From: ANME-2 cluster archaeon
Lineage (GTDB): Archaea; Halobacteriota; Methanosarcinia; Methanosarcinales; Methanocomedenaceae
Reading direction: 5' to 3'
Assembly: GCA_014237145.1 (NCBI GenBank)
Contig: JAAXOC010000117.1
Coordinates: forward strand, 1-40,151
DNA: 40,151 nucleotides
Shown: one piece after another, positions 2,363-40,151 of the stretch
Layout: each line of letters opens with the position of its first letter
Numbering within the stretch: the stretch's first letter is position 1
Position numbers and translations under genes: made by a program
Notes under the pieces: generated by a model
Databases searched by the model: none
Seen by the model: the letters and a program-made list of their open reading frames with translations, nothing else
Told to the model about the DNA's origin: nothing

Positions 2363-3130
2363 GTTGTGACAAGAAAGTCCTATCATGAATTGCAGAAATG
2401 CCGCTCGCTCCCTTCCGAGTGACCCTACTGTGACATGCAGTATTAGTAATGGAATGTCTGATGCTCGCAGTCCAAGGTGGACAAAACCTGGAAGTCTGAT
2501 GCGGACAATCTGCTAGGGTAATGAATGCTAAGAAGAAACGAAAGTTGAATCATCGTAAGAGTCGTAAATAGTGACAAGCGAAAGCAGACTGTATACGCTT
2601 GAGCCAAAAGGCACAGAATTAGACTATAATGGCTTCGTACACATTACAGGGAATGGACATATGATTCTCGGCTTATAGATGGCTTCTAAGGCATTTAGAA
2701 ATTATTCAAGGTATGGAACTTGGTAAGCCCCATGAGCTCCCAGTTATCTGGGTAGAGAGTCCGTGAGGACCGACGATGGCTCAGAGGGTAGCGGAAACGG
2801 TAAAAAGCGAATGCCAGTTTGTAATGGACTGGATAGAGGTTCAGACTTTGCCTCAATCTGAAAGGGTGCAGACTTGCCAATGGTGTTTCATTGTATGAAC
2901 GGAGGCAAACCTGTCAATGTAAGACACTCAACGACGCTGAAAAGCGAGAGACTTACAGACGCTTAATGTGTTAATAGGCTGCAGACCGGAATTACAAAAG
3001 CAGTGATCTAAGTGAGAACTGCTGCCCGATACAAAAAGGGTCATGGAAGGCTTGAGCCGGATGTGATTAAAGTCGCAAGTCCGGTTCTTAGAGGGCTTGG
3101 GGCTGGCAACGGCCCCCGGCTACTCGGCAA
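2363..3130 (+). mobile_element. Group II intron without reverse transcriptase ORF
   Basis: The element starts near GTTGTGACAAG, a variant of the conserved 5' end (GUGYG), and closes with a clear domain V and a domain VI-like stem followed by CTACTC. Its length of about 770 nt and lack of any long frame indicate an ORF-less intron needing a maturase from elsewhere. GAAA tetraloops and stem-rich sequence in 2500-2960 fit domains I to III. It follows a perfect small palindrome, GTACTATTAGTAC (2349-2361), a possible hairpin target like those used by class C introns. Exact splice points are not fixed; the 3' end may vary by about 8 nt. It interrupts no recognisable gene. Confidence 0.75.
3054..3087 (+). 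ncRNA. Group II intron domain V
   Basis: This is a 34-nt hairpin of the canonical size. It opens GAGCCGGA and closes TCCGGTTC, which pair along eight positions, and carries the AGC catalytic triad at positions 2-4. After an asymmetric bulge, TGTGA pairs with the GTCGCA strand around a short loop. Size, triad and bulge together are diagnostic of domain V. Confidence 0.85.
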
Positions 3131-3266: not shown

Positions 3267-5213
3267 ATGAATACCATAAAAAAAATAACCCCATACGGCT
3301 CCTGGAAATCTCCAGTCACATCAGATATGATCGTCTCAGGAACCATCAGACTTGAACAGATAGTTATCGATGGACCGGATATCTACTGGATAGAGAACAG
3401 ACCAAAAGAAGGTGGACGGTACGTAATAGTACGTCACTCACCAGACACTCTAAGTACAGATATCACGCCACCTCACTTTAATGCCCGTACACGAGTACAC
3501 GAGTACGGCGGCGGATCATTCACAGTTGTAGAAGGCACAACATATTTCTCAAATTTCGATGATCAACGTCTCTACCGTCAATTTTCCGGGGATGACCCGC
3601 ACCCACTTACTCCTGCACTGGATTATCGTTTTGCTGATATCATTATTGATAATATCAGGAATAACTTGATATGTGTACGCGAGGATCATACACACTCAAA
3701 ACAAGAACCAACCAATACTCTGGTAAGTATTGATCTTGATGCTAATAATGAATGTCAGGTACTGGTATCCGGTCATGATTTTTATTCATCTCCCCGGCTG
3801 AGTCCCAGCGGCTCACATCTTGCCTGGCTTACCTGGAACCATCCTAACATGCCATGGGATGGTACACAACTATGGGTAGGTGAAATAGAAAAAGACGGAT
3901 CGATCGGACATATAGACCAGATAGCAGGTGGCGTTGACGAATCTATATTCCAGCCAGAGTGGTCGCCTGATGGTACTTTATACTTCATTTCAGATAAAAA
4001 CGGCTGGTGGAATCTCTACTGCCTAAATAATAATAAAAATAATAAAAATATCAAGCCGGTTTGCCAGATAGAAGCAGAATTTGGCCTGCCGCAGTGGGTC
4101 TTTGGACAGTCCACTTATTCATTTGCATCAACGAACCGTATCATATGCACCTATACCAGACAGGGAACCTGGTACTTAGCAAGTATTGATACAGTATCAG
4201 GCAGACTTGATGTGATCAATACTCCTTATACTTCAATAGGATATCTCAAAGCTGTACCAGGATATATAGTATTTATCGGGGGTTCACCTACAGCTGCACC
4301 ATCAGTGGTCAGGCTTGATCTTGATACACACAAGATGCATGAGATGCGCTGCTCAAGTGAGATTGTGGTAGGTGTTGATATTGATATTAACTATCTCTCA
4401 AAACCAAAGCCTATTGAATATCCGACTGAGCACGGACTCACAGCAAACGCTTTCTTTTATCCACCCAAAAATCCTGAATTCGCAGCTGCGCCTGATGAGA
4501 TGCCCCCCTTACTTGTCATCAGCCACGGAGGTCCGACTGCATCTACTTCAGATACATTTAACCTGATGATACAGTACTGGACAACCCGTGGAATAGCTGT
4601 ACTTGATGTGAACTACGGAGGAAGTACCGGCTATGGCAGACAGTACCGCCAGCGTCTGGATGGCCAGTGGGGAATCGTTGATGTGGACGATTGTGTGAAC
4701 GGTGCACGATACCTTATTGAGCAGGGCAAGGTTGACAGTGAGCGGCTTGCTATTAGAGGAGGAAGTGCAGGAGGTTATACTACTCTATGTGCACTCACCT
4801 TCCGCAATGCTTTCAAAGCAGGAGCCAGTTACTACGGAGTCAGCGATCTTGAAGCCATGGTAAAGGATACACATAAGTTCGAGTCGCGTTACCTTGACCG
4901 GTTGATAGGTCCTTTTTATGAAGGAAACGAGCTATATAGCGAACGCTCACCTATCAACTCCATTGAGCGCTTATCATGTCCTGTGATCTTTTTTCAGGGA
5001 CTTGAAGATAAAATAGTTCCACCCAACCAGACCGAGATGATGGTGGACGGGATGCGTGCAAAAGGATTACCAGTGGAATATGTATTATTTGAGGGCGAGC
5101 AGCATGGGTTCCGCCGAGCTGAGAATATCAAACGTGCGCTTGATTGCGAGCTTGATTTTTATTCAAAGGTTTTCGGTTTTACACTGGCCGGGTATGATGG
5201 CCACAACTTATGA
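3267..5213 (+). CDS. S9 family prolyl oligopeptidase / acylaminoacyl peptidase
   Basis: The 648-residue soluble enzyme has the length and layout of the S9C group. Residues 1 to about 400 form a β-propeller (blade motifs such as VHEYGGGSF, SPSGSHLAWLTW, WSPDGTLYFISD). The rest is an α/β-hydrolase. The catalytic triad can be read as Ser500 in GGSAGG, Asp581 in LEDKIVPP and His613 in EQHGF; the oxyanion region is SHGGPT. Such enzymes cleave short peptides or N-acylated residues in the cytoplasm; no signal peptide is seen. The gene stands alone between mobile-element zones, with AT-rich promoter-like sequence upstream (TTTTATATAG, about 3178). Confidence 0.9.
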   Translation: MNTIKKITPYGSWKSPVTSDMIVSGTIRLEQIVIDGPDIYWIENRPKEGGRYVIVRHSPDTLSTDITPPHFNARTRVHEYGGGSFTVVEGTTYFSNFDDQRLYRQFSGDDPHPLTPALDYRFADIIIDNIRNNLICVREDHTHSKQEPTNTLVSIDLDANNECQVLVSGHDFYSSPRLSPSGSHLAWLTWNHPNMPWDGTQLWVGEIEKDGSIGHIDQIAGGVDESIFQPEWSPDGTLYFISDKNGWWNLYCLNNNKNNKNIKPVCQIEAEFGLPQWVFGQSTYSFASTNRIICTYTRQGTWYLASIDTVSGRLDVINTPYTSIGYLKAVPGYIVFIGGSPTAAPSVVRLDLDTHKMHEMRCSSEIVVGVDIDINYLSKPKPIEYPTEHGLTANAFFYPPKNPEFAAAPDEMPPLLVISHGGPTASTSDTFNLMIQYWTTRGIAVLDVNYGGSTGYGRQYRQRLDGQWGIVDVDDCVNGARYLIEQGKVDSERLAIRGGSAGGYTTLCALTFRNAFKAGASYYGVSDLEAMVKDTHKFESRYLDRLIGPFYEGNELYSERSPINSIERLSCPVIFFQGLEDKIVPPNQTEMMVDGMRAKGLPVEYVLFEGEQHGFRRAENIKRALDCELDFYSKVFGFTLAGYDGHNL

Positions 5214-12323: not shown

Positions 12324-15300
12324 ATGACCCTGAACGAACTACTCACCACATCAACCAAAAGGCAGCTTGATGCAATACAACACACCCGTGGACCGCTGTT
12401 GATACTGGCAGGGGCAGGCACAGGCAAGACCACCACCATCACTACTAAGATAGCCTACATGGTGAAAGAACAGGGTATAGACCCGGGCCAGATACTTGCC
12501 CTTACCTTCTCAAGGGAGGCTGCCGGGCACATGAAGGCCAAGGTCGAGCAGCTCCTGGGAGGTCTGGAGGTACATGTCAGTACATTCCACTCCTTCTGCG
12601 CAGAGGTCATCAGGGAGAATGCTGACAAATGCGGTGTGTCCCCCGAGTTCTCCATCCTGGAAGACGTGGACACTTCCATTATGCTGCACATGAAATTAGG
12701 CATAAATATCAGGGATGCGACACTGTACACTTCATCCATCTCAAAAGCCAAGGACCTGAACATCACCATAGAGAACATGGAGGATTTCCTGCAGGGTCGA
12801 AAACAGTTACTCAGGGAAATGGAACCGGATGAGGGAAAATGGGAGCAGTTGTACCATGACAACACCACCCGGCTGAATACCTTCCACCTGCTGGACGATG
12901 CTAAAAAGAAGGCATTGAAAGAGGAAAAGAAGGGCTGGATACACTTCAACGAGGAATATACGGAATATGCCAGGTACAGGGATATGGTGCAAACCTGGAA
13001 ACGCTACGAGACCGCCAAAAAAAAGAGGAATGCACTGGATTATGGCGACCTGAACAAAAAGGCACTGGAATTCCTGCACACATACGGGACCCACGGGGCC
13101 ACTGACAGGTACAAGTATATCATTATCGATGAGTTCCAGGATACTAACTATGTCCAGTTCGAACTGATCAGACTCTTGGCAGGCAAAGAGAAGAACGTGA
13201 CCGTTGTTGCAGACCCCAACCAGACCATCTACGCATTCAGGGGTGCCTACACAAATAACATACAGGAGTTTATACGGAACTTTGATGTCGGGTCTGATGA
13301 CATTGTCTCCCTTGATGTGAGTTTCCGCTCAACCAATAAGATACTGCGGGTATCCCATGACCTGATACGGCATAACTACGGCCCTGACCAGACGGACCTG
13401 CTTATCCAGCTTCATAACAACGATGAAGTTGAGGGGGGAGATGTACACATTGTTGAGACCGCTGACGAGAATGAGGAAGCCAGGTACATTGTGGAACAGA
13501 TAGAGACATGCCTGGAACACGGGGTGGATAGGTCGGATATTGCCGTACTGTACCGGACACATACACAGGGGCGCAGGATAAGGCAGGCACTGGAAAGAAG
13601 GGGACATGCCGTACGTGTGAAGGATGATACTGATTTTTTAAAGCGCCCTGAGACCAAGACCGCACTTGCCTACCTGTACGTGCTGGATAACCTGGTCAAT
13701 CCAAGGGCAAGGGGTACAGAAAGCTGGTGGAGGCTGTTCCACTACAACCATGCACTTGATACAGGGGATTCCATAATTATTGGGGAGTACCTCAAAAAGC
13801 ACCGTGTCTCTTTTCAGGATGCCATCTACAACCATTTCAGTGAACTGGGCTTATCACCATCAGGACAGCAGGTAGTGAAGCAGATGAAACGCCGGATAGA
13901 TGGGTTGAAAGATAAACTTGTACTGGACGTTTCTGATATTTTAATAGAAATACTGGACGCATCAGGCTTAAGCCGCCAGTTCACCTTTGATGATACCAGG
14001 GAGAACAGGGAGGCTATGCTGAACCTGAGGAACCTGCATGAAATGGCCCTGAAATTCGAAACATCACACGGCAGGGAACTGGGCGATTTTATTGCTTACC
14101 TTGAGATACTGGATGAGATGGGCAAGAACCCGCCGGCTGCAAGGATAATGGAAGAAGATGCAGTGAATCTTATGACAATCCATTCATCCAAGGGCCTGGA
14201 GTTCAATACCGTGTTCGTGACAAATATGGCAAAGGACCGCTTTCCACTGTTCAGAGGTGGTGTTGAGCCATTGATACCTATTGAACTTATAGACCTGTAT
14301 CGTGACCTGCTTAAGCAGGATTTCAGTTCCAGGTCCAAACGGTTGAGTGCCATACGTGAACTGAAACGGGAGATCAAACTTGAAGAAGAGCGAAGGCTGT
14401 GCTACGTGGCCATGACCAGGGCAAGAGAACACCTGTACCTTACACTTGGTATCCGGTACGGTGCACGGGAGCGCCATCCATCGGAATTCCTTGTCGACAT
14501 TAGATATGACAACTGGAGAGCTGTGGACAAGGATGAAGTGGATGTACCTGATATCACATACCTGCGCGACAGCGAGGTAAGTTCAAGGGAGGTTATCAGG
14601 GACAGTGAGCTTGAGTGTATCAAAACCCACAGGAAAAAGCTGGTTATTGAATCCCTTGACTTGGGTTCATTTGAGGAGAACCTGGGGCACTTGCTGGCAT
14701 ACCATGCATTGAGGGATGGTAATGGTGAGGATTATCTTGACATTATTAATAGTAAATGGGACGAACTGGACCCTGCCGGACATGCAAAGGAGATACTGGA
14801 CAGGGACGGGAGTAATGAAGGTATTCCCCCTCCTTCTGATATCACATTTAGTGTTTCGGCAGTGAACACTTATTCGGAATGTCCTAAAAAGTATGAGTTA
14901 CAGCATATACTGGGCATGCCTACCCGTGATATGGAGAAGAGTGACGGGGCCATGAATATCGGAAGTTTCGTGCATAAGGTCCTGGAGAAAGCTGTACGCC
15001 AGAAGGTCTCGACCAGAAAACAGCTTGATGAGATCACCCTCACCCTGACAAAGGAGGATAAATGGAAATGGGTAGACACGGCAAAAGCAAAACCCTTACT
15101 GGATGTGTTCTGGCAGCGCAATAAATATTCTATTCAAAATAACATGATGGTGGAAAGGAGGTTCACCGTACTGCTGGGGGACCACCAGTTCAAGGGTTTC
15201 ATTGACAGGGTCGACCTGATACCAGGGTCAGATAATGAAGTGGAGATTATTGATTATAAGACAGGGAACGAACCTGGACCTGTTGAAAGGTCAAAACAAT

Positions 15301-15572
15301 TACTTTTATACGCACACGGGTTCGAACATATGTATCCTGAATACAGGGTGCAGAAGCTGACACTGGAGTTACTGGCAAAGGAAAAACCCAGGGTGTATGA
15401 ACTGGATGGTGAGGAATATATTTCCTCAAGGGTGAAACCGCTGGATAATGGTGCCCTGTCAGATATGATAGATGCAGCAGACAATATAGTTCATGATTAC
15501 CGATGCGGGTTTGACAGGATTGATGATGACTCGGTATGCAAACGCTGCGGGTACAATCTGTACTGCGGATAA
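12324..15572 (+). CDS. UvrD/Rep-type helicase fused to Fe-S PD-(D/E)XK nuclease
   Basis: The 1082-residue protein joins a superfamily 1A helicase to a RecB/AddB-type nuclease. Helicase motifs are clear: Walker A GAGTGKT (residues 30-36), STFHSFC near 86, Walker B DEFQD (269-273), motif III QTIYAFRG (300-307), SFRSTNK near 333, motif V MTIHSSKGLEF (about 617-627) and motif VI AMTRAREHL (about 696). The nuclease part has Cys853, the active-site block EVEIIDYKTG (Asp977, Lys979) and a C-terminal Cys trio (1072, 1075, 1081); the four Cys are the usual ligands of an AddB-like 4Fe-4S cluster. It probably processes double-strand breaks. It appears monocistronic, and GC content is higher than in the flanking accessory DNA. 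Confidence 0.9.
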   Translation: MTLNELLTTSTKRQLDAIQHTRGPLLILAGAGTGKTTTITTKIAYMVKEQGIDPGQILALTFSREAAGHMKAKVEQLLGGLEVHVSTFHSFCAEVIRENADKCGVSPEFSILEDVDTSIMLHMKLGINIRDATLYTSSISKAKDLNITIENMEDFLQGRKQLLREMEPDEGKWEQLYHDNTTRLNTFHLLDDAKKKALKEEKKGWIHFNEEYTEYARYRDMVQTWKRYETAKKKRNALDYGDLNKKALEFLHTYGTHGATDRYKYIIIDEFQDTNYVQFELIRLLAGKEKNVTVVADPNQTIYAFRGAYTNNIQEFIRNFDVGSDDIVSLDVSFRSTNKILRVSHDLIRHNYGPDQTDLLIQLHNNDEVEGGDVHIVETADENEEARYIVEQIETCLEHGVDRSDIAVLYRTHTQGRRIRQALERRGHAVRVKDDTDFLKRPETKTALAYLYVLDNLVNPRARGTESWWRLFHYNHALDTGDSIIIGEYLKKHRVSFQDAIYNHFSELGLSPSGQQVVKQMKRRIDGLKDKLVLDVSDILIEILDASGLSRQFTFDDTRENREAMLNLRNLHEMALKFETSHGRELGDFIAYLEILDEMGKNPPAARIMEEDAVNLMTIHSSKGLEFNTVFVTNMAKDRFPLFRGGVEPLIPIELIDLYRDLLKQDFSSRSKRLSAIRELKREIKLEEERRLCYVAMTRAREHLYLTLGIRYGARERHPSEFLVDIRYDNWRAVDKDEVDVPDITYLRDSEVSSREVIRDSELECIKTHRKKLVIESLDLGSFEENLGHLLAYHALRDGNGEDYLDIINSKWDELDPAGHAKEILDRDGSNEGIPPPSDITFSVSAVNTYSECPKKYELQHILGMPTRDMEKSDGAMNIGSFVHKVLEKAVRQKVSTRKQLDEITLTLTKEDKWKWVDTAKAKPLLDVFWQRNKYSIQNNMMVERRFTVLLGDHQFKGFIDRVDLIPGSDNEVEIIDYKTGNEPGPVERSKQLLLYAHGFEHMYPEYRVQKLTLELLAKEKPRVYELDGEEYISSRVKPLDNGALSDMIDAADNIVHDYRCGFDRIDDDSVCKRCGYNLYCG

Positions 15573-33041: not shown

Positions 33042-33175
33042 TCGCGAATCGCTGACCCTGGCAAAGAAGAACCAGCCACAGCCCTGAAAAATTCGGAGGG
33101 AACCTCCCCCACTCTGCCAGGTACTCACGTCAGTTGGTGCCACTTCATAGATACTGTGCCAACTATCCTGAATCT
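33038..33175. repeat. Dispersed repeat family, copy 1
   Basis: The first 93 bp (GTAGTCGCGAATCGCTGACC to ACTCACGT) match 34465-34557 at about 85%. The remainder (TTGGTGCCACTTCATAGATA to CTATCCTGAATC) matches 35900-35943. It contains the stem GGAGGGAACCTCCC. It begins on the stop codon of the flippase-like gene. Confidence 0.75.
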
Positions 33176-33501: not shown

Positions 33502-33564
33502 AAATTATTAAATATTGAAATGCTCGGATGAATGTATTTTAGATGTTCAATTGAGAACGACTAC

Positions 33565-33987
33565 ATGACAATTGATAAACGCAGAAAAAGGACTGATGCA
33601 TGGCTTGATGAAGCAATATATGATTTTGATACTTGTAATGAACTTCATAAGCTCGGGAGATTTAATTGGGTATGTAACTGCTGCCAGCAGGTGGCAGAAA
33701 AATCCATTAAATCTTTATTCCTCTTAAATGGTATTGATTATCCATGGACACATAGTACTGTCGATTTGCTGGATGAATTAAATGAGACGTTGTCGATTGA
33801 AAATAAGGAATTTATTGCTTTGAGACATTGTGCAAGTGAGCTTGATCCGCATTATATTGAGACTCGCTATCCTGATGCAATTAGCGGCACTCAAGCACCG
33901 TATAAATACTACGATAACCAGCGAAGTGCACAGTGTCTGGAAAATGCTGGGAGGATACTTGAATGGGTGAGGAAACAGATTCAATAA
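33565..33987 (+). CDS. HEPN-domain toxin-like protein
   Basis: The 140-residue protein is a minimal HEPN of the HepT group: WLDEAIYDFDTCNELHKLGR, then WVCNCCQQVAEKSIKSLFLL and the conserved HYIETRYPDA near the end. HEPN toxins are RNases or are AMPylated by their MNT partner. ATG 33565 fits the family start; an upstream ATG at 33532 would add 11 residues. It overlaps the MNT gene by 25 bp. This pair has both frames intact, unlike the pair on the opposite strand at 34.5-35.2 kb. Confidence 0.8.
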   Translation: MTIDKRRKRTDAWLDEAIYDFDTCNELHKLGRFNWVCNCCQQVAEKSIKSLFLLNGIDYPWTHSTVDLLDELNETLSIENKEFIALRHCASELDPHYIETRYPDAISGTQAPYKYYDNQRSAQCLENAGRILEWVRKQIQ

Positions 33988-34286
33988 TCGGGCAGGTAAT
34001 CGCATATTGCAAAAGGGTAAATCAAAATTTTAAATTAAAGAGGGTTATATTGTTTGGATCAATGAGCAGGGGTGATTTTTATCCTCATAGTGATATTGAT
34101 CTTTTACTGATATCTGACGAGTTTCCAGATGACTGGTTTAACAGACAGGCCGAACTTTATTTTTTAAAAACTAAACGAATAGAGCCAATTGGATATACCA
34201 CAGATGAAATTCAAAATATGTTAAAGGAGGGGAATAATTTCATCGAAAATGTTTTGCGTGAAGGGAGGGATATTGAATTATTCTAA
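33963..34286 (+). CDS. MNT-type nucleotidyltransferase antitoxin
   Basis: The 107-residue protein shows the minimal nucleotidyltransferase signature ILFGSMSRGDFYPHSDIDLL, with both catalytic Asp of DID. MNT proteins in HEPN/MNT loci act as antitoxins, some by adding AMP to the HEPN toxin. The frame overlaps the HEPN gene upstream, so translation is coupled. Confidence 0.85.
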   Translation: MGEETDSIIGQVIAYCKRVNQNFKLKRVILFGSMSRGDFYPHSDIDLLLISDEFPDDWFNRQAELYFLKTKRIEPIGYTTDEIQNMLKEGNNFIENVLREGRDIELF

Positions 34287-34464: not shown

Positions 34465-34557
34465 GTAGTCGCAAATTGTGACCTTGGTAAAGAAAAACCA
34501 GCCACAGCCCTGAAATACCCGGAGGGAGCCTCCTCCACTATGTCAGGTACTCACGTA
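34465..34557. repeat. Dispersed repeat family, copy 2
   Basis: This is a 93-bp partial copy: GTAGTCGCAAATTGTGACC through CCAGCCACAGCCCTGAAATA and GGAGGGAGCCTCC to ACTCACGTA. Its last bases coincide with the stop codon of the HEPN pseudogene on the minus strand. Confidence 0.75.
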
Positions 34558-35847: not shown

Positions 35848-35943
35848 GGCTACCACCGCGAAAGATCCGGTCGGAGCCCCCTCGCCCAGGTACTCAGATC
35901 GGTTGGAGCTACTTCATAGCTACCATGCCAGCTATCTTGAATC
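35848..35943. repeat. Dispersed repeat family, copy 3
   Basis: The part CCAGGTACTCAGATCGGTTG to AGCTATCTTGAATC matches the second half of copy 1 at 33117-33175. The preceding GGTCGGAGCCCCCTCG is equivalent to the GGAGGGAACCTCCCCC block. On the minus strand it would encode EVAPTDLSTWARG, also present in copy 1 as VAPTDVSTW-like sequence, so it may come from a coding gene end. Confidence 0.65.
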
Positions 35944-36080
35944 CCAAGTTTGACACTTTGATTTATTGCTGATTTGTAATCTTCATTTTTTATGTCCATA
36001 ATTCTTTTTTTCATGCTTTTTCCTGACAAATCAGAATACATTCTCGAAAAGAAAAAAGTGAAACGTGTCAAACTTGGGAT
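35941..36080. mobile_element. 140-bp MITE-like element
   Basis: The ends ATCCCAAGTTTGACAC and GTGTCAAACTTGGGAT are perfect 16-bp inverted repeats, continuing for a few more matched bases. The interior is AT-rich and non-coding. No target duplication is evident. It separates dispersed repeat copy 3 from the nuclease locus. Confidence 0.75.
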
Positions 36081-36180
36081 AAATTAAAATAGAGTCGTTT
36101 ATGTAATCATTATGAAAATCATTGTTTGATTATGGGAAATATTTGAATTTTTTTCTACTAAAATGAAGGAAGGGCATTTA

Positions 36181-36855
36181 ATGAAAAATTATGAAATACT
36201 AAAACATTATAAAAAAAGTGATTTAAGAAGATTAGCCAAAGGGAAAACATCGGAAATAGTCGGCATAGATTCTGAAAAGATATTGATAGATCTTAGCAAA
36301 GTCCTGGGAAATTATGAAAGCATAAGAAATAATGTTGAATTTAGAAAACCTCCTAATCATACCATTCTTGAAGTATTATTTGATGCACCGGATCATCGCG
36401 TCAAAATTGAAGATTTAAAACTATTAGTCACCAAAAAAATTGCTGAATATCAGAAAAATTCTAACGAGATTAACCTTGAGGATCCAAATAAAAAATACCG
36501 TTTATACACAGCTGTATTAAATGCAGCTTGGGATTATGAAGGAGATTTATTGCCTGCTGAGGCAAACATATTGAGAGTACTTAGAAATGAATTGAGTATT
36601 TCAAAGAAAGAACACCAGTATATGATGGCACATCCACAAATTAAAAGGTTATTTTTTGATGACGAAATGTATAGATATGAATTAGAATATCTCTCAAGAG
36701 AAGGCATAATTTTAGTATATAAACTGGACAATGATGATTATTTTATTTTATCAGATGAGACTGTGGATAGTTTAAAAGAGCTATGGGGAATCGAACTTGA
36801 ACATGATCAATTCATAAGATTAGTGGACAAATTTGATAACTTTGAACTTTCATAA
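36181..36855 (+). CDS. TerB-like N-terminal part of SAP/nuclease locus
   Basis: About 224 residues are encoded from ATG 36181, which has GGAAGG seven bases before it (ATG 36163 is the alternative). The middle, AVLNAAWDYEGDLLPAEANI and LRVLRNELSISKKEH, resembles TerB-like helical domains with their acidic metal-binding turn. The end, YELEYLSREGIILVYKLDND then YFILSDETVDSLKELWGIEL, looks like a winged helix. The TAA at 36853-36855 is followed in the same frame by SAP-like sequence and then the nuclease, so this may be the front part of one broken gene. The family could not be named. Confidence 0.55.
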   Translation: MKNYEILKHYKKSDLRRLAKGKTSEIVGIDSEKILIDLSKVLGNYESIRNNVEFRKPPNHTILEVLFDAPDHRVKIEDLKLLVTKKIAEYQKNSNEINLEDPNKKYRLYTAVLNAAWDYEGDLLPAEANILRVLRNELSISKKEHQYMMAHPQIKRLFFDDEMYRYELEYLSREGIILVYKLDNDDYFILSDETVDSLKELWGIELEHDQFIRLVDKFDNFELS

Positions 36856-36981
36856 ATATTAAAGAATTTCAATCTACCCATTTCAGGAAATCACGAAAAT
36901 AAAGTAAATCGAATTATTTTGGAAGAAATAAAACCAAGTGAAATATAATATTCTCTTCCTTCGTCTCAATTATCTTCCTAT

Positions 36982-37971
36982 TTGAAAAGAATCGACATAT
37001 CACAATCTGGAAAAAAAGAAGAAAAAATTTTAAAAATTATAGACCATTTCAAAAATAGTAGAGATATTGTAACAATACCACCTGTGAAAATTATTGACTT
37101 AGACATTGAAGATAAAAAATTATCTGAAGAAAAGAGAATTGATTTATTTTCTAACTTGACGACCCAACAGTTAAGCAATGTACTTGGAAAATTAAATCTA
37201 TTAAAATCGGGGCAAAAAGATATTTTAATTTATCGTTTGGCAAACTGTCAATATAATGAAATAACTATTCTGAATGTCACCAAATTGGATGATATCAAAT
37301 CCACATCACGAAAATTGGAGTTGCAGGTAAGTGGTACAAAAACCAATCTAATTAATGATCTGATTAGATATTATTCAGACCTAATAATCAAAGAAAGTAA
37401 ATTGCCTACAAAAGAATTAGCCAATTATTACATTGAACTGAGTTGCCAAGATGCTAGGATTTATCCACAAGCTGATAATTCAGAAGTAATAAGTACAGCA
37501 TCAATTGCCCTTGACTTTGAAAGAGTGACAAAGTATCTCTTCAAGAATGTTTTTAAGTTAGAAATAAAAACACAGAGATTTGGAAAAGAAGACCCTGACG
37601 GTATAATCAAAGACGATGAAGGAAATCTTTTCTTCTATGAATGCAAAACGGTGTTGAATCCCCCATATAAAATGCCAATCGCCCATCGATTGCAAATTAG
37701 AAATTATATTGAAAAGATTTCAAAAACAAAAGATAAAGAGAACTTTAAGGGGTATATTATAATCTCTCATAGTTTTTCAGATAATATCATGAATAAAATT
37801 GAAGCAGTAAATTCTCCACTAGATGCTCCTATCTGCGTTATCGAAGCAAGAGATTTGGCGGCATTTGCAAAGAAATGGGAGACTAATTTTCCCATAGATA
37901 CATTTCCAATAAAGCAAATTGTGAAAAATGGGATTGTTACACTGAAAGATTTTGACCAGGCTTTGCATTAA
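36982..37971 (+). CDS. SAP-motif PD-(D/E)XK nuclease-like protein
   Basis: The 329 residues from TTG 36982 contain SAP-like DNA-binding motifs (LSSYLKRIDISQSGKKEEKI before and at the start, LSNVLGKLNLLKSGQKD, LELQVSGTKTNLINDLIRYY), then a nuclease core: an Glu in FERVTKYLF, DPDGIIKDDEGN and FFYECKT, which fits D-(X)n-ExK. Such a core is typical of restriction-like endonucleases. No good ribosome binding site precedes the TTG; an in-frame TAA lies at 36946-36948, with another SAP-like peptide (NLPISGNHENKVNRII) upstream of it. The real gene probably began at 36181. An IS21 element starts about 75 bp after its stop. Confidence 0.55.
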   Translation: MKRIDISQSGKKEEKILKIIDHFKNSRDIVTIPPVKIIDLDIEDKKLSEEKRIDLFSNLTTQQLSNVLGKLNLLKSGQKDILIYRLANCQYNEITILNVTKLDDIKSTSRKLELQVSGTKTNLINDLIRYYSDLIIKESKLPTKELANYYIELSCQDARIYPQADNSEVISTASIALDFERVTKYLFKNVFKLEIKTQRFGKEDPDGIIKDDEGNLFFYECKTVLNPPYKMPIAHRLQIRNYIEKISKTKDKENFKGYIIISHSFSDNIMNKIEAVNSPLDAPICVIEARDLAAFAKKWETNFPIDTFPIKQIVKNGIVTLKDFDQALH

Positions 37972-38162: not shown

Positions 38163-39680
38163 GTGATCTCAATGGAAGATTGGATAACAATAAGGAACTT
38201 AAAGAAGCGGAATCCCAAAATGGGAACAAGAACAATTGCAAAACAACTCAATTTATCGAGAAACGCCGTAAGGAACGCGCTGCGATCAGAAGATCCACCA
38301 GCGTATAAAAGAAAGCCGTATATAAATCCAGAACTACAACCATTTCAGGAATATATCACTGAGCAATACTTTGTTAAGAAACTGAAAAGAAGTCGAGTTC
38401 TTAATGATCTGCAATCAAAGGGCTGTAAAGTTTCAAGTTCGGCGTTTTATAGGTACATTCAACAGTATAAGACCGAATTTACACGGGCCTATATGCGATA
38501 TGAAACAAAGCCAGGAGAACAAGGACAATTCGATTGGTCGCCATACACCGTAATGATTGAAGGCAAACAGGTCACGATCCAAGTATTCTGTTTAATTTTG
38601 GGGTGCAGTCGATATAGAACATACATGTATTCTCTATCCCAGACACAATCATCTGTGTTTGAAGCATTGGAAGAAGGTTTGAGCAGAATAGGAGGAGTTC
38701 CTGAAAGGATTCAGACTGATAATCATACAACACTATATGATGCAAAAAAAAAGGAGTGGAATCCAAGATATATTAGATTTGCCAACCATTATGGTTTCCA
38801 ACCATCCCGTTCAGAGGTTCGCCACCCCTGGTCCAAAGGAAAGGTAGAAAATCCATTTTTATACCTTGAAAACCACTTTATTGCCGATAATGAGTTTGAA
38901 TCCTTCGATGACTTCTCTTTGAAACTCCTAGACTTTGAAACACAGGTAAATCATCGTATCCACACAACAACAAAGAAAAAACCCATTGAATTGTTCAATC
39001 CCGAAGAAATGGCGGTGCTTTCTCCATTACCAAAAAACAGATTCATTGGTATTTTGGAAGAATTCCGCAAAGTTAGTTCTGATTGTTTAATTTCAGTTGG
39101 TGGAAACAGATACAGTGTACCTCATATCTTTGCAGGTAGAGATGTCTGGATACGAATTAGTCAGGGCAGATATATAGAAGTCTATTCCCAATCGAACAAA
39201 CTAATAGCAAAACATACCCTGGAAAGAACTGAGAAAGGCAAGATCTTCATGAATCAGGAGCACTTTCAAGGATACAGGGGGACTAAAGGAACATGGAACT
39301 TCTTATCACAACAATTCTTAACAATTGTCCCAGGACAGGAAGATTTTTTAAAGAAACTCAAAGCACAGAAACGGATCAATCCATCACGGCATCTTACACT
39401 AATTGTTGAAGCAGCCAAACACTTCAACAAGGGGGATATCAAGAATGTGATCCAGTTATGTGATAAATACAACGTTTACCGGGGCGATCTGTTTGTTGAT
39501 CTCTTACATCAAAATTCTGAACCTGTTTTCATTCCCAAACTGGATCAGGTAAATGATCTGTCGATCCTGAGTCCACCTGGTGTAATTCGTAGTTTAGATT
39601 CATATTGTACTGAAAACTTTGTAGAAAGATCAGGGGGGAGATATGAATGGATGATCTTGAGCACTATTTTGAAGAATTGA
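38163..39680 (+). CDS. istA: IS21 transposase IstA
   Basis: The 505-residue DDE transposase has an N-terminal helix-turn-helix (MGTRTIAKQLNLSRNAVRNA), then the catalytic core with Asp in GQFDWSPYTV, Asp in RIQTDNHTTLY and Glu in WSKGKVENPF, and a C-terminal β-barrel-like part (SVGGNRYSVPHIFAG). It forms dimers that cut and join element ends, with IstB choosing the target. GTG 38163 has AGGAGGT six bases ahead; ATG 38172 has GGGTGATC ahead; either is possible. The frame is intact. Confidence 0.93.
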   Translation: MISMEDWITIRNLKKRNPKMGTRTIAKQLNLSRNAVRNALRSEDPPAYKRKPYINPELQPFQEYITEQYFVKKLKRSRVLNDLQSKGCKVSSSAFYRYIQQYKTEFTRAYMRYETKPGEQGQFDWSPYTVMIEGKQVTIQVFCLILGCSRYRTYMYSLSQTQSSVFEALEEGLSRIGGVPERIQTDNHTTLYDAKKKEWNPRYIRFANHYGFQPSRSEVRHPWSKGKVENPFLYLENHFIADNEFESFDDFSLKLLDFETQVNHRIHTTTKKKPIELFNPEEMAVLSPLPKNRFIGILEEFRKVSSDCLISVGGNRYSVPHIFAGRDVWIRISQGRYIEVYSQSNKLIAKHTLERTEKGKIFMNQEHFQGYRGTKGTWNFLSQQFLTIVPGQEDFLKKLKAQKRINPSRHLTLIVEAAKHFNKGDIKNVIQLCDKYNVYRGDLFVDLLHQNSEPVFIPKLDQVNDLSILSPPGVIRSLDSYCTENFVERSGGRYEWMILSTILKN

Positions 39681-40151
39681 AACTAAAGCATATCCCTGAG
39701 ATCTATAAAGAAGAAGCTAAAATAGCAGCGGAAAAAAAACTCGATTATACAGAGTATTTGTCCAATCTCATTGAAAAAGAATATCAAGGTATGATTGAAC
39801 GCTCAGTTAACCAGAGAATACGTCGAGCTGGTTTTCCTTGTATAAAAACAATTGACGGATACGATTTTACATGCCAGCCAGAACTAAATGAGAAACTCAT
39901 AAGGAACCTTAATACGTTGGAATATCTTGATAATGCGATCAACATAATATTTGTCGGGCCACCTGGTATTGGCAAATCGCACCTATCGATTGGCTTGGCG
40001 ATAAAAGCTTGTGAGAAAAGAAAACGGGTCATGTTCTATACTGCCCAGGAACTTGTAGATGATCTGGCAAAAGCAAAATTAATGGGCTATCTTGGTCGGG
40101 AGTTATCCAAATTAGGAAGGATCGATCTTTTGGTATTGGATGAATTGGGAT
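39647..40151 (+). CDS. istB: IS21 helper ATPase IstB, 3' end outside window
   Basis: Translation from ATG 39647 (GGGGGGAG six bases upstream) gives MDDLEHYFEELKLKHIPEIY and, after a helical N-terminal domain, Walker A FVGPPGIGKSHL and Walker B LLVLDELG at the window edge. It overlaps istA by 34 bp. IstB is an AAA+ protein of the DnaC type that assembles on target DNA and recruits IstA. About 168 of roughly 250 residues are present. Confidence 0.93.
   Translation, partial: MDDLEHYFEELKLKHIPEIYKEEAKIAAEKKLDYTEYLSNLIEKEYQGMIERSVNQRIRRAGFPCIKTIDGYDFTCQPELNEKLIRNLNTLEYLDNAINIIFVGPPGIGKSHLSIGLAIKACEKRKRVMFYTAQELVDDLAKAKLMGYLGRELSKLGRIDLLVLDELG

Follow-up and report, generated by a model that had tools for sequence, protein, structure and literature searches.

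The window, which is the whole stretch of DNA analysed here (40,151 bases, contig C117 of a 2.97-Mb genome in 118 contigs), carries an interrupted gene. We regard it, at odds of roughly two to one, as the pseudogene of a solitary, single-polypeptide nuclease, FokI-like and SAP-tethered, whose likeliest role would be directed against viruses or plasmids. The source genome encodes methyl-coenzyme M reductase subunit A and belongs to a methane-metabolising member of the Halobacteriota that is not a haloarchaeon.

Translation of the region reveals a frame that is open from ATG 36163 or ATG 36181 to the TAA at 37969-37971. As the preliminary description had stated, two internal TAA codons, at 36853 and 36946, are its sole breaks. 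The frame amounts to 603 codons when counted from 36163, and to 596 from ATG 36181, including the two TAA positions. No frameshift is present across the 1.8 kb. When this DNA was simulated with a first-order Markov model (1000 runs), 48.9 stops arose on average and never fewer than 30, as against the 3 seen when the terminal stop is included; the other five frames of this DNA contain 22-75 stops. The number of stops being far below expectation, the frame therefore is, or recently was, coding. The two internal stops are 90 bp apart, and 126 bp lie between the first TAA and a TTG start at 36982; codon-usage scoring of this gap was uninformative. ATG 36181 is the likelier start, because GAAGGAAGGG precedes it and the start methionine of the haloarchaeal proteins described below aligns with it. 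The features of the region are collected in the table.

Features of the interrupted gene and of its surroundings in the window
Feature	Positions	Strand	Evidence or remark
Whole interrupted coding unit	36181..37971	+	Translation, Markov stop simulation, collinearity with intact haloarchaeal genes
N-terminal piece: helical region and winged-helix-like segment, ending at first TAA	36181..36855	+	Translation, low-confidence model
First internal stop TAA	36853..36855	+	Translation
Codons in frame between the two stops, with SAP-like motif NFNLPISGNHENKVNRII	36856..36945	+	Translation; inside profile-aligned residues 184-304
Second internal stop TAA	36946..36948	+	Translation
SAP array	36949..37395	+	Pfam SAP above cut-off; alignment with relatives
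FokI-like PD-(D/E)XK nuclease domain, PDG...ECK intact	37483..37968	+	BLASTP, hmmsearch, Foldseek, alignment
HEPN / nucleotidyltransferase toxin-antitoxin-like pair	33532..34286	+	Upstream
MITE-like element, about 140 bp, terminal inverted repeats of about 20 bp, ATCCCAAGTTTGACAC / GTGTCAAACTTGGGAT	35941..36080	.	Just upstream
IS21-type transposase and ATPase genes	38163..40151	+	Downstream; named by eye; second gene cut by contig end

The joined frame gave weak matches in two haloarchaeal genomes, and one of the matching proteins was then used as a query. This defined a family of single genes of 545-558 aa, with 60-87% identity to the query protein. Ten haloarchaeal genomes and eight complete named copies each show a gene of about 550 aa without interruption; genera with named copies include Halorubrum, Haloglomus, Halonotius, Saliphagus, Natronococcus and Halolamina. 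Homologues consisting consistently of two genes, which would have spoken against a joined frame, were thus not what the searches returned, and the earlier proposal of one large protein of about 600 residues agrees with these collinear single genes. A family copy of Natrinema versiforme (WP_138247088.1) is annotated as 'hypothetical protein', and one copy is carried by plasmid pNVE500 of that species. An intact copy (QRG24139.1), also labelled 'hypothetical protein', is present in siphovirus Humcor1 (MW344765.1 24187-25827; L050 12001-13641), where it stands between a YbaK-family gene and a YdjM-family gene. Humcor1 is an induced provirus of Halorubrum coriense (PMC7911831).

Weak genome-search matches can arise by chance. 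Those near 1e-4 were therefore trusted only with a shuffle test, and the link between the window protein and the haloarchaeal family was tested directly by shuffles. With hmmsearch, the haloarchaeal profile matched the joined window frame at 40.2 bits (E 1.7e-11), whereas the best of 2000 shuffled sequences reached 6.6 bits. Two collinear segments, residues 184-304 and 378-577, match the profile in the same order and both score above all 2000 shuffles. The first of these spans both TAA codons and aligns to profile positions 221-352 with 9.8 bits. Alignment of window residues 119-578 to the family with hhalign gave a score of 51.3, whereas none of 60 shuffles exceeded 25.9 and the reversed protein reached 14.5, and the haloarchaeal proteins (for example QRG24139.1 and WP_138247088.1) are collinear with the window frame from about residue 119 on. 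The nuclease domain also matched L002 by BLASTP (3e-8). Residues 1-230 alone do not match the haloarchaeal profile significantly (E 0.13, in the wrong place), and for this reason we restrict the proposed family membership to the middle and C-terminal parts.

At 21-25% identity to the haloarchaeal relatives, and with an N-terminal part that is not alignable alone, the window protein might resemble the family at the superfamily level only (PD-(D/E)XK plus SAP), in which case the single-gene inference would not be transferable. The Mrr-like protein L100 (G348), rejected as a closer relative, is indeed also weakly matched (E 2e-5). Nevertheless, we consider this reading improbable, given that both segments match a single profile in the same order and above 2000 shuffles, and that domain order is the same and length similar. 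Four further matches to the haloarchaeal query (L018-L021, with E values from 5e-5 to 9e-4) were dismissed as chance: judged by eye, L018 and L019 fall within genes that resemble dehydrogenases or oxidoreductases, and no nuclease-like gene was seen at L020 and L021. An E value of 6e-162 from one search was circular, as the query was inside the profile, and was discarded. No matches came from pattern scans for the window nuclease in the genome and viral collections, from phage and plasmid sequences searched by tblastn with the joined frame, or from PDB sequence searches.

The preliminary description offered two fates for the gene, recent inactivation or expression as two parts. The first is favoured, because the downstream piece has no ATG ahead of the catalytic core: the first in-frame ATG, at 37672, is past the ECK motif, and the ORF starts before it are TTG and GTG only. 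The gene is probably a recent pseudogene, silenced in the source genome by two nonsense codons. The lack of frameshifts leaves room for a gene that is still in use. If it were split but alive, the N-terminal and SAP-nuclease pieces would be made separately and assemble like two-subunit restriction enzymes. TTG 36982 opens an ORF of 329 aa that covers SAP repeats together with the nuclease, whose catalytic motif is undamaged, and R.BspD6I, a natural two-subunit FokI-type enzyme, is among the fold matches (2p14). We nonetheless judge a living split gene unlikely. TTG 36982 is not preceded by a purine-rich ribosome site, a split would leave the 90 bp between the stops without a coding role although they belong to a stretch that still aligns with the single-gene relatives, and among these relatives only visibly degraded copies are split. 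Broken haloarchaeal copies comprise one in two pieces (G438), fragments in G425, G344 and G573, and a frameshifted copy (L048); L032 and matches L015-L017 are likewise broken or reduced to fragments.

Such broken copies in relatives also speak against the idea that the gene is intact and that errors in sequencing or assembly created one TAA codon or both. The division of the assembly into 118 contigs and the otherwise undamaged frame would fit errors of this kind, but two independent stop-making base errors within 93 bp are unlikely at ordinary coverage, and we give this explanation little credence. Readthrough or recoding of the stops, yielding full-length protein at a controlled level, would account for coding on both sides of two stops in one frame. 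It appears very improbable, as two successive events would be needed and no UAA-reading tRNA (anticodon UUA) was found among the 41 of 42 tRNAs read. Moreover, the recoding known from archaea of this group affects UAG, which is read as pyrrolysine, and not UAA.

The intact protein would consist of an N-terminal helical and winged-helix-like part, a SAP array and a C-terminal FokI-like PD-(D/E)XK cleavage domain. The winged-helix-like segment (about residues 143-208, M1 at 36163) is taken from the secondary structure of a low-confidence model; among PADLOC models, the window protein matched only LmuC, weakly and in the N-terminal piece (residues 143-207, E 0.006). The SAP-like motifs noticed earlier were confirmed by the Pfam SAP profile, which scored 34.6 bits (E 1.4e-8, cut-off 23.9) on the joined frame and 30.5 bits on the downstream piece alone. 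The first SAP-like repeat after the second TAA aligns with the SAP-like repeat of the haloarchaeal proteins. About two further SAP repeats before the nuclease are extra in the window protein, the intact haloarchaeal proteins having fewer repeats in the middle. The proposed PD-(D/E)XK core is likewise present, with PDG at residues 478-480 and ECK at 493-495 (M1 at 36163), and the DG and K of the catalytic motif are invariant in the alignment with haloarchaeal relatives. In contrast, the TerB-like label first given to the protein found no support, as no TerB profile in Pfam or NCBIfam matched at E<=10. Sub-threshold Pfam matches to ENT, DCP1, Cas2 and similar were set aside.

FokI appears to be the nearest solved relative of the nuclease. 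In Foldseek searches it was the first PDB match for both the haloarchaeal and the window AlphaFold models (E 1.1e-4 and 1.6e-4, probability 1.00), these being low-confidence models (mean pLDDT 56 and 43, respectively) with full-length TM-scores near 0.2 and a better C-terminal domain. The two models were built from nearly the same alignment and are not fully independent. Because the models are poor overall and not fully independent, the likeness to FokI is drawn from the C-terminal domain and from the agreement of sequence and fold. In the alignment, the catalytic signature is present in FokI order: the C-terminal order PDG...ECK...YKMPI...NYIE of the window protein corresponds to PDG...(D/E)xK...Y-x-(L/M)-P-I...Y-(I/V)-E, common to it and FokI (1fok, 2fok). 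Comparison of the nuclease with FokI by hhalign gave a suggestive score of 24.3, with 100 shuffles at 20.2 or below. The Pfam profile FokI_cleav_dom (PF09254, cut-off 25 bits) stayed below its cut-off, with 15.4 bits on a haloarchaeal copy (L031), and did not find the window protein in a search of its own genome. A BFVD fold search gave no significant match. Both FokI and the window protein carry their DNA-binding parts N-terminal to the nuclease and total about 580-600 residues. However, SAP repeats replace the FokI recognition domain, a cognate methyltransferase is absent, and the residues aligned to the FokI dimer residues D483 and R487 are not identical.

Behind FokI, the fold matches were Nt.BspD6I, EcoO109I, EndoMS and R.BspD6I2. 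Nt.BspD6I and R.BspD6I (2ewf, 2p14), which resemble the window nuclease as structural matches, have their nuclease at the C-terminus of the large protein. Unlike the window gene, they belong to a bacterial type IIS system with partner genes, and they are not known to carry SAP repeats. Mrr-type endonucleases (PF04471) are likewise solitary PD-(D/E)XK nucleases and cut without a partner methyltransferase. Mrr genes adjoin two of the haloarchaeal copies (L024 and L037), but Pfam Mrr_cat matched neither the window protein nor the three haloarchaeal proteins scanned.

A look for conserved neighbours, suggested in the preliminary description, showed that the genes around the haloarchaeal copies vary. 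No widely recurring partner gene was found across 21 haloarchaeal loci, and the genes that recur in three or four of them are mostly provirus genes. Only one of the 79 neighbours within 3.5 kb at 17 haloarchaeal loci is a methylase, of the D12 adenine type, and no methyltransferase gene is present among the annotated genes of the window. With this single methylase and no recurring partner, the gene is therefore not part of a type IIS restriction-modification pair, yet it keeps defence-rich and mobile company. Other neighbours at the 17 loci match profiles of DISARM DrmD, Mokosh, MADS and Gabija-like helicases, occurrences that do not by themselves amount to enrichment.

By analogy with FokI, the SAP and N-terminal parts may anchor the protein to DNA, and a double-strand break would result when two molecules bring their nuclease domains together. 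Since no methyltransferase is consistently alongside, the trigger would be something other than a missing partner modification, for example base modification, a structural feature of the DNA or a motif that the host lacks. The likeliest role would lie in defence against viruses and plasmids or in rivalry among them, because a haloarchaeal virus and a plasmid carry relatives and other relatives adjoin defence genes. The two nonsense codons would have silenced the nuclease gene in the source genome.

The preliminary description could name no restriction or defence family for this protein, and indeed none of Pfam, NCBIfam, PADLOC and PHROGs names the family, which goes by 'hypothetical protein' even where the virus has been published. 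The novelty is the methyltransferase-less archaeal family joining SAP repeats to a FokI-like nuclease, not the window copy, which, being most likely a pseudogene, matters mainly as a lead to the family. Our literature search found no paper on a nuclease that combines FokI and a SAP domain, an absence that is not proof of novelty, and the main text of a 2026 survey of archaeal immunity mentions neither FokI nor SAP domains (PMC12988326). We put forward only tentatively the wider proposal that a new family of solitary archaeal nucleases, with a SAP array and a FokI-like domain and no methyltransferase, resides on viruses, plasmids and chromosomes and cuts competing DNA recognised by its modification or structure. 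Should the protein prove to be a FokI-like nuclease that acts alone, then an archaeal virus has a restriction-type cutter but not the antidote to it, and the rule by which the host is spared can therefore be put to the test. Those who build nucleases from the FokI domain would also be interested in a natural relative directed by SAP repeats.

The gene has a GC content of 30%, compared to 42% for the window, and no relatives were found in the other 16 genomes of the family or the 185 of the order. Together, these two observations suggest acquisition by transfer. The defence-island setting first described holds in part: the HEPN-nucleotidyltransferase pair (a typical archaeal toxin-antitoxin module), the MITE-like element and the IS21-type genes flank the gene, but no recognisable multi-gene defence system is present. 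The MITE-like element has partial matches on two other contigs (C16 and C32). A dispersed non-coding repeat without an Rfam match occurs in three diverged copies (81-87%), at 33053-33174, 34479-34556 and 35877-35943. Elsewhere in the window, positions 3052-3128 match the Rfam group II intron catalytic domain (49.4 bits); the adjacent ORF (3267-5213) encodes an S9 peptidase and no reverse transcriptase, and the domain is likely an intron remnant. Finally, positions 12324-15572 encode a UvrD helicase fused to a PD-(D/E)XK nuclease (1082 aa).
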